NCBI GenBank assembly: GCA_021323535.1
Contig: JAJONO010000006.1
Location: 1 to 64,000, forward strand
DNA from: Bacteroidota bacterium
GTDB lineage: Bacteria; Bacteroidota; Bacteroidia; B-17B0; Aurantibacillaceae
DNA length: 64,000 bases
Direction of reading: 5' to 3'
Below the pieces are notes generated by a model that ran no database searches, was not told the origin of the DNA, and was given only the letters and a program-made list of their open reading frames with translations. The stretch's first letter is position 1; each line of letters begins with the position of its first letter. This document shows, piece after piece, positions 9,164 to 63,860 of the stretch. Both the position numbers and the translations under genes were made by a program.

Positions 9164-9729
9164 TGGCAACAACAACTTATCAACCTCGTTTAAAAGGTAA
9201 ATACAGGAACGAAATTGTTGAAAATCTTAAAAAGCAATTTCAGTATACTTCTGCAATGCAGGTTCCTAAACTCGAAAAAATTTGTATTAACCAAGGTGTG
9301 GGCGATGCAGTTTCTGACAAGAAAATGATCGAATCTGCTGTAAAAGAAATGACCACTATTACCGGTCAGAAAGCAGTTCCTACATACTCAACAAAAGATA
9401 TCTCGAATTTTAAATTACGTAAAGGTGTAGCTATTGGTGTTCGTGTAACACTTCGTGGCGATAAAATGTATGAATTCTTAGATCGTTTGATCGCTTCAGC
9501 ATTACCACGTATCCGTGATTTTAAAGGCGTGAATGATAAAGGATTTGATGGCCGTGGTAACTACACTTTAGGTGTTACTGAGCAAATCATTTTCCCTGAG
9601 ATCGATATCGATAAAGTGAGCAAAATTCAGGGTATGGACATTACTTTCGTAACGTCTGCAAATACCGATAAAGAAGCTCACGCTTTATTAACAGAATTTG
9701 GAATTCCATTTAAAAAGAAAGATAAATAA
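9163..9729 (+). CDS. rplE: 50S ribosomal protein L5
   Basis: Ribosomal protein uL5, which binds 5S rRNA and the P-site tRNA. The 188-residue product contains [18 protein letters not shown] (about residues 33-50), the [16 protein letters not shown] segment and [21 protein letters not shown] (about 123-143). It overlaps rplX and rpsN by 1 nt each, indicating coupled translation. Confidence 0.98.
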
Positions 9730-9998
9730 TGGCAAAAGAATCAATGAAGGCCCGTGAAGTAAAAAGGGCCAAACTTGTAGCAAAATACGCTGAAAAACGC
9801 GAACAACTTAAAAAAGAAGGTAAGTGGGATGAACTTCAGAAACTACCACGCAACTCTGCAAAAGTTCGTATGCGTAACCGTTGTAAATTAACAGGCCGTC
9901 CGCGTGGCTATATGAGCACATTCGGAATCAGCCGTGTTACTTTCCGTGATATGGCGCTTTTCGGACTCATACCGGGTGTTACAAAAGCCAGCTGGTAG
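9729..9998 (+). CDS. rpsN: 30S ribosomal protein S14, zinc-independent form
   Basis: Ribosomal protein uS14 of the 30S head. The 89-residue form lacks the CxxC zinc motif, so it is the long zinc-independent (C-minus) type. It has [21 protein letters not shown] near residues 56-76 and ends in the canonical PGVTKASW. In most spc operons rpsH follows closely, but here a 196-nt gap with its own promoter-like sequence intervenes. Confidence 0.97.
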
Positions 9999-10076
9999 TA
10001 TTTGCCAATGCCTTGAAGGCAAAGGAAGATAATCCACTGAAAATTGTAGACAAGAGGAAGAAAGTACAAAATAAAC

Positions 10077-10107
10077 TTGGAGGATTGGGTAAGTATTCGT
10101 ATATTTG
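10077..10107 (+). promoter_or_regulatory. Bacteroidota-type promoter before rpsH
   Basis: TTG at 10077-10079 and TATATTTG at 10100-10107 are separated by 20 nt and match the TTG / TAnnTTTG pattern of the Bacteroidota primary sigma factor. Transcription would begin near 10112, giving rpsH a leader of about 80 nt. This is an internal promoter in the spc group. A short inverted repeat (TTTGCC/GGCAAA, about 10002-10024) lies upstream of it. Confidence 0.65.
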
Positions 10108-10194
10108 CCCCCTCAAAAAAATAAATAATTGTTTAATATAATTATTTCAGCAGGTAAAGGCCTGATTTGAAGTAACATATAAACTTAAAAAAAC

Positions 10195-10449
10195 ATGACA
10201 GATTCAATTTCTGATTACTTGACTCGCGTTAGAAATGCGATCAAAGCTAATCACCGCATCGTGGAAGTTCCCCGCACATTAGAGCGCGTATCAAGCCCTG
10301 GTTTACGTAAGTATTCAGGTGCTACTACAATGCCACGTGTATTAAACGGATTAGGTATTGCCATCGTTTCAACTTCTAAAGGTGTTATCACTGATAAAGA
10401 AGCCAAGAAAATGAATGTTGGCGGCGAGATCTTATGTTATATTTCATAA
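10195..10449 (+). CDS. rpsH: 30S ribosomal protein S8 with internal N-domain deletion
   Basis: Ribosomal protein uS8, a primary 16S rRNA binder (helix 21). Family members are about 130 residues; this frame gives only 84. Residues 1-26 ([20 protein letters not shown]...VEVP) match the normal N-terminus, then the sequence jumps to [14 protein letters not shown] and the full C-terminal RNA-binding domain with [12 protein letters not shown] and GGEILCYIS. About 47 residues, the second helix and two strands of the N-terminal domain, are absent with the frame kept. No second S8 copy is present in the window. Either a real in-frame deletion or an assembly collapse. Start and stop are as expected, and rplF follows after 23 nt. 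Confidence 0.9.
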
Positions 10450-63500: not shown

Positions 63501-63860
63501 TCATTTTATAAGCATCTCCACTGCTTCCTCTTTCGATTTAACAAACCCAACCTGCTTCCCTTTATTACTTTCAAAAATAAAATCTTTCAGGCTCTGACTT
63601 TGGATATTACTGAAATCGCCAACAATAGCTAATCTTACCCGGTAATTCGAAAACTTCTGTAAAATTTCTCCTGCGAGTTTTGTTTTAAGGTCGAAGAATT
63701 CAGGTGTTATATTTTTCTTATAAAGAATGATCTTATCAAACCCATCATAATATAAATTTCCCAGTAGATCTGTGGCGTCTTCGAGAGTTGAAATAACAAG
63801 TGTTTCAGAAAGAACTTCCACGATTTTTGTGTTGTTTATTTCGAGAGTATTGATTTGCAT
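63501..63860 (-). CDS. DUF4180 domain protein
   Basis: 119-residue protein matching the DUF4180 pattern: ISTLEDATDLLGNLYYDGFDKIILYKKNITPEFFDLKT, FSNYRVRLAIVGDFS, SLKDFIFESNKGKQVGFV. Cytoplasmic, no signal. It lies 15 nt downstream of another minus-strand gene that enters the window from the right. Function unknown. Confidence 0.8.
   Translation of the reverse strand: MQINTLEINNTKIVEVLSETLVISTLEDATDLLGNLYYDGFDKIILYKKNITPEFFDLKTKLAGEILQKFSNYRVRLAIVGDFSNIQSQSLKDFIFESNKGKQVGFVKSKEEAVEMLIK

Follow-up and report, generated by a model that had tools for sequence, protein, structure and literature searches.

Ribosomal protein uS8, encoded by rpsH, is described as crucial for folding of the 16S rRNA central domain (PMC10931766), and rpsH is called an essential gene in a Tn-seq study of Mycobacterium abscessus (PMC8262987). 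The N-terminal domain of S8 is reported to have the layout alpha-beta-alpha-beta-beta (PMC4176348). In the Bacillus S8-RNA aptamer complex described in the same source, the C-terminal domain makes about twice as many RNA contacts as the N-terminal domain and, through Ser107, the single base contact, while the N-terminal domain, too, reaches the RNA through K31, K56, and Q57. Among the titles and beginnings of abstracts that we searched, we found no report of a bacterial S8 with an N-terminal deletion.

We analyzed a stretch of DNA of 64,000 nucleotides (the window), in which rpsH lies in its normal position in the spc operon, between rpsN and rplF. A preliminary description had reported an S8 frame of 84 residues carrying an in-frame gap without a stop or frameshift, and this was borne out by the open reading frame (ORF) at 10195-10449 on the forward strand. 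When aligned with 64 S8 proteins from relatives, the encoded protein lacks one block of 48 residues, corresponding to residues 27-74 in 132-residue numbering; the large internal gap that had been described is thus confirmed in the sequence, although the first count of about 47 residues was not exact. In the nucleotide sequence this corresponds to 144 nt missing between 10272 and 10273, where ...GAAGTTCCC is joined directly to CGCACATTA.... The features of the locus are as follows.

9729..9998, forward strand: rpsN (uS14), 89 aa, length as in relatives.
10195..10449, forward strand: rpsH (uS8), 84 codons and a stop, with 144 nt missing in frame (alignment, profile match).
10195..10272, forward strand: N-terminal part kept, residues 1-26, presumed helix 1 and strand 1 by homology (alignment; S8 domain layout as given in PMC4176348).
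10272..10273, no strand: junction, 48 codons absent, residues 27-74 of 132-aa relatives (alignment).
10273..10446, forward strand: C-terminal part kept, residues 75-132 of relatives, including the STSKG loop, predicted by homology to bind RNA (alignment; RNA contacts of the aptamer complex as given in PMC4176348).
10473..11027, forward strand: rplF (uL6), 184 aa, length as in relatives.

The 64 aligned proteins came from 70 relatives' loci, of which 6 were missed by the motif used, and two genomes were counted twice (L025/L055 and L031/L056). Their lengths vary little (132 aa, n = 55; 131 aa, n = 7; 133 aa, n = 1), and the single protein of 127 aa is cut by a contig end. Both retained parts match these relatives closely, in agreement with the earlier statement that the first 26 residues and the C-terminal domain are well conserved. 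The truncated protein is treated differently by two family models. Its score against Pfam PF00410 is well above the cut-off (78.4 versus 24 bits), with a match that covers only profile positions 70-125, whereas its score against NCBIfam NF001109 falls below (107.7 versus 119 bits).

The sequence of the C-terminal RNA-binding domain, with its STSKG-type loop, is present, and the N-terminal alpha-beta-alpha-beta-beta domain is incomplete by the 48 absent residues. Set against the described domain layout, helix 2 and strands 2 and 3 would be lost, and the complete C-terminal domain would follow directly on helix 1 and strand 1. By homology, the equivalents of K31, K56, and Q57 would all fall in the missing part. 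In such a protein, binding to helix 21 of 16S rRNA could survive, while the N-terminal half would probably not pack properly. Single-sequence structure prediction of the 84-aa protein gave a mean pLDDT of 42.7, too low to be informative.

We looked for similar truncations in related genomes with three PF00410 searches, which overlap in part. Among 100 genomes, including this one, 89 had a match, and in all 88 others the match began at profile position 1 and reached at least position 121 of 126. Within the genus (40 genomes), 36 had a match, and the 35 other than this one were full length, spanning positions 1-125; the 4 of 39 other genus genomes without a match are incomplete or fragmented (60 to 91% complete), and L6 was not found in them either. 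In a phylum-wide sample of 392 genomes, drawn evenly with a requested completeness of at least 95%, there were 383 matches, 382 of them in the 391 other genomes. The weakest E value among these 382 was 2.5e-35, compared to 1.7e-21 here, so that none scores nearly so low; for the weaker matches, the conclusion that they are not truncated alike is drawn from the E value, because their coordinates were not listed. The deletion is therefore shared by no relative searched. Aligning rpsH of relatives had been proposed in the preliminary description, which named an intact gene there as evidence against a minimal S8, and intact rpsH is what the alignment found.

There were 20 genomes without an S8 match (11 from the 100-genome search and 9 from the phylum search), and none of them had a match to L6, the next gene. 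We therefore regard the region as missing or unreadable in these assemblies, which makes them uninformative about S8, and we rejected them as natural losses of S8 alone. A 21st genome included in the L6 check (G345) matched both proteins. The nine phylum-search assemblies with neither match (e.g., G122 and G175) are rated 95 to 100% complete. When the truncated S8 was used as the query against 20 genomes of the class, including this one, 17 of the 18 other matching genomes aligned in two blocks, as expected for full-length genes; the remaining one (G079) aligned in one block and has a full-length S8 in the 100-genome search. A search of genome_contigs, which may omit records of this genome or a very near one, with a degenerate pattern for the same junction returned 11 stretches; tblastn of full-length S8 against them gave only three chance-level hits (E = 4.1, 6.4, and 7.0). 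Separately, in a genome of the same family (G045), contigs break inside rpsH, one ending at profile position 121 (L068) and another starting at position 67 (L069). The fragment at the contig start is additional to the S8 match counted above for this genome, whose rpsH is split by the contig break.

The gap also has no counterpart among the neighboring genes compared. Of 30 proteins encoded from rpsL to rplQ and compared with six relatives' stretches, S8 alone has a large gap, 48 residues in all six comparisons. For the other 29, the largest gap total was 9 residues, in alignments of S3, with 0 to 2 in the rest. Upstream genes have fewer comparisons in this set, because one stretch starts at L22 (L088), another starts within the EF-G gene (L089), and a third cuts S12 (L087). 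The earlier impression that the other ribosomal proteins are normal thus holds for internal gaps in the 29 genes compared; the tail of L17 is shorter here (153 aa versus 154 to 168 aa in relatives). When the comparison was extended to the window and the 40 kb that follow it, which make up the first 104 kb of the contig, 35 ORFs, some of them spurious frames, had a homologue with at least 55% identity in the stretches fetched from relatives. Two were flagged, S8 and, for coverage, an antisense frame within rplO; only S8 had an internal gap of at least 6 residues against every such homologue. A Pfam scan of 40 chosen ORFs between 18.6 and 63.9 kb revealed no obvious internal loss, which is a weak check because 5 of the 40 lack a family and several of the others match only in part. 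The scan also identified domains of type IX secretion and gliding, which suggest that the organism belongs to the Bacteroidota.

The spacer between rpsN and rpsH (9999-10194) is longer here than in 11 relatives (196 nt versus 114 to 158 nt), and the extra part appears to adjoin rpsN. We considered an insertion at this site as a sign of rearrangement and rejected it: the assembly contains the spacer sequence only once, and the part nearest rpsH is similar in relatives. The -7 element of Bacteroidota-type promoters is TAnnTTTG. At 10100-10108 the spacer contains TATATTTGC, which resembles this element and suggests a putative internal promoter before rpsH. The word TAnnTTTGC occurs in all 11 spacers that were parsed from the 37 relatives with S8 found.

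Apart from the gap, the gene looks unchanged. Compared with 37 relatives (35 from the genus and 2 from the family), none of the 84 retained residues is one unseen in relatives, while L5, S14, L6, and L18 of this genome have 1, 2, 1, and 1 unseen residues, respectively. The power of this test is low, since full-length relatives themselves have a median of zero unseen residues in S8, and it suggests neither decay nor adaptation. Relative to the per-base consensus of the 37 relatives, 32 of the 84 retained codons differ, 23 synonymously and 9 not. One of these 9, at residue 34, is an artefact of the consensus, whose composite codon reads Arg where relatives mostly have Ser. With no unseen residue and 23 of 32 differing codons synonymous, the retained piece looks like part of a full-length S8. 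An old minimal S8 appears to be a poorer fit to this than an artefact or an event of very recent date.

We consider a wrong join in the draft assembly the probable and leading cause of the gap in rpsH, and we do not regard the 144-nt gap as an established feature of a living lineage. Two pieces of rpsH would have been joined without the unique segment between them, for instance during gap closing or through a chimeric read, and the organism itself would then carry a normal rpsH of about 132 codons. Because the gap is seen in no relative searched and the rest of the gene looks untouched, an assembly fault or a very recent mutation is likelier than a new kind of ribosome. We place the fault in the assembly, and not in the cell, by inference. 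Several observations speak against this. The gap is an exact multiple of three without other damage, which an artefact would achieve about one time in three and which shifts the odds roughly threefold toward a real event; no second fault of its kind was found among the 35 ORFs of the first 104 kb; and a flanking repeat that could cause repeat collapse is not seen in relatives. The lack of unseen residues counts only weakly in its favor, as the median full-length relative has none either. A wrong join is nevertheless favored because, in our judgment, the absence of the gap from readable relatives, the essential role that S8 plays, and the fact that the genome is a draft outweigh the argument from the reading frame.

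The nature of the junction narrows the mechanism. Among the 37 relatives, 30 have no nucleotide in common between the two breakpoints at the junction and 7 have 1 nt, and the longest word shared within 15 nt of each breakpoint is 3 to 5 nt in 35 of them and 7 nt and 8 nt in one each, about the length found in shuffled sequence. There is thus no direct repeat flanking the gap beyond chance in these relatives, from which the missing letters of the organism itself may differ. This argues against repeat collapse, which we judge unlikely, and not against a wrong join; of the two readings offered in the preliminary description, a minimal S8 and an assembly collapse, an artefact is favored, but not in the form of a classical repeat collapse. 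Slippage between repeats as the cause of the gap is likewise unlikely. A 13-nt word and an 11-nt word close to the junction each occur once more in the window, at 63812 (reverse strand) and 50922 (forward strand), in different surroundings. Two mechanisms remain: a wrong join, made during gap closing or through a chimeric read, and an illegitimate deletion that took place within the cell.

The second of these, a real in-frame deletion of very recent origin, whether fixed in the strain that was sequenced or carried by a sub-population, is the foremost alternative to a wrong join, and we think it unlikely without being far-fetched. Such a deletion can leave the 0 to 1 nt shared at the junction in relatives, and it agrees with the exact frame, the lack of a similar gap nearby, and the single rpsH in the assembly. 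The C-terminal domain, which has the larger share of RNA contacts in the aptamer complex (PMC4176348), is complete, and a short S8 might, as a tentative proposal, still dock on helix 21 of 16S rRNA through this domain, to which helix 1 and strand 1 would be fused. On this reading, the cell would live with slower 30S assembly. Against all this, the loss would extend to helix 2, strands 2 and 3, and the N-domain RNA contacts, the deletion was seen in no genome searched, and S8 is regarded as essential in the study cited above (PMC8262987). That the 30S subunit works with an 84-residue uS8, created by a single recent deletion and retaining only helix 1, strand 1, and the C-terminal domain that binds helix 21, is in our view improbable. 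If it does, most of the N-terminal domain of a universal protein would be dispensable, and the organism would be a natural experiment on the share of uS8, a primary binder of 16S rRNA, that a ribosome requires.

We hold it highly improbable that a minimal uS8 is long established in this lineage and compensated by changes in 16S rRNA or neighboring proteins. The open, in-frame ORF is compatible with this reading, and we found nothing more specific for it. Neither an unusual length nor an internal gap is seen in S5, S17, S12, or S14; the partner proteins S5, S17, and S12 are 85 to 97% identical to those of relatives, and PF00333 finds one S5, in its usual place. A search for 16S rRNA, where compensating changes would lie, gave no match in the assembly, and the same search also failed in 5 of 14 control genomes. 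With none of the 84 residues unseen, nothing suggests a long-established minimal S8, although the test is weak, and full-length S8 in the 35 matching genomes of the genus also stands against it. The minimal-S8 reading of the preliminary description thus gained no support, whether from the relatives searched or, in this weak test, from signs of co-adaptation in the retained part. Finally, a split gene with the missing segment encoded elsewhere, or a second full rpsH, is scarcely credible and was rejected, as the rpsH of the window is the only PF00410 match in the whole assembly and the missing 48-aa segment, copied from a relative as the query, had no significant match there (best E = 0.66), and its only refuge would be loss into the gaps of this 141-contig draft (5,312,254 bases; estimated completeness, 97.5%).

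If the gap is an artefact, as we judge more likely, it cautions that a universal protein found truncated in one draft assembly calls for read-level verification, and that genes shortened in this way can fall below the curated cut-off of their family. Compared with bacterial uS8/rpsH as represented by PF00410 and NF001109, the gene here has the same placement between rpsN and rplF, with residues 1-26 and a C-terminal part closely similar to those of relatives, and it differs in lacking residues 27-74. The best match among solved structures is uS8 of PDB 7jil (chain m), which we take to be from a Flavobacterium ribosome. Residues 2-28 and 25-83 of the protein encoded here align with residues 3-29 and 73-131 of that chain, whereas the solved chain has the intervening segment.
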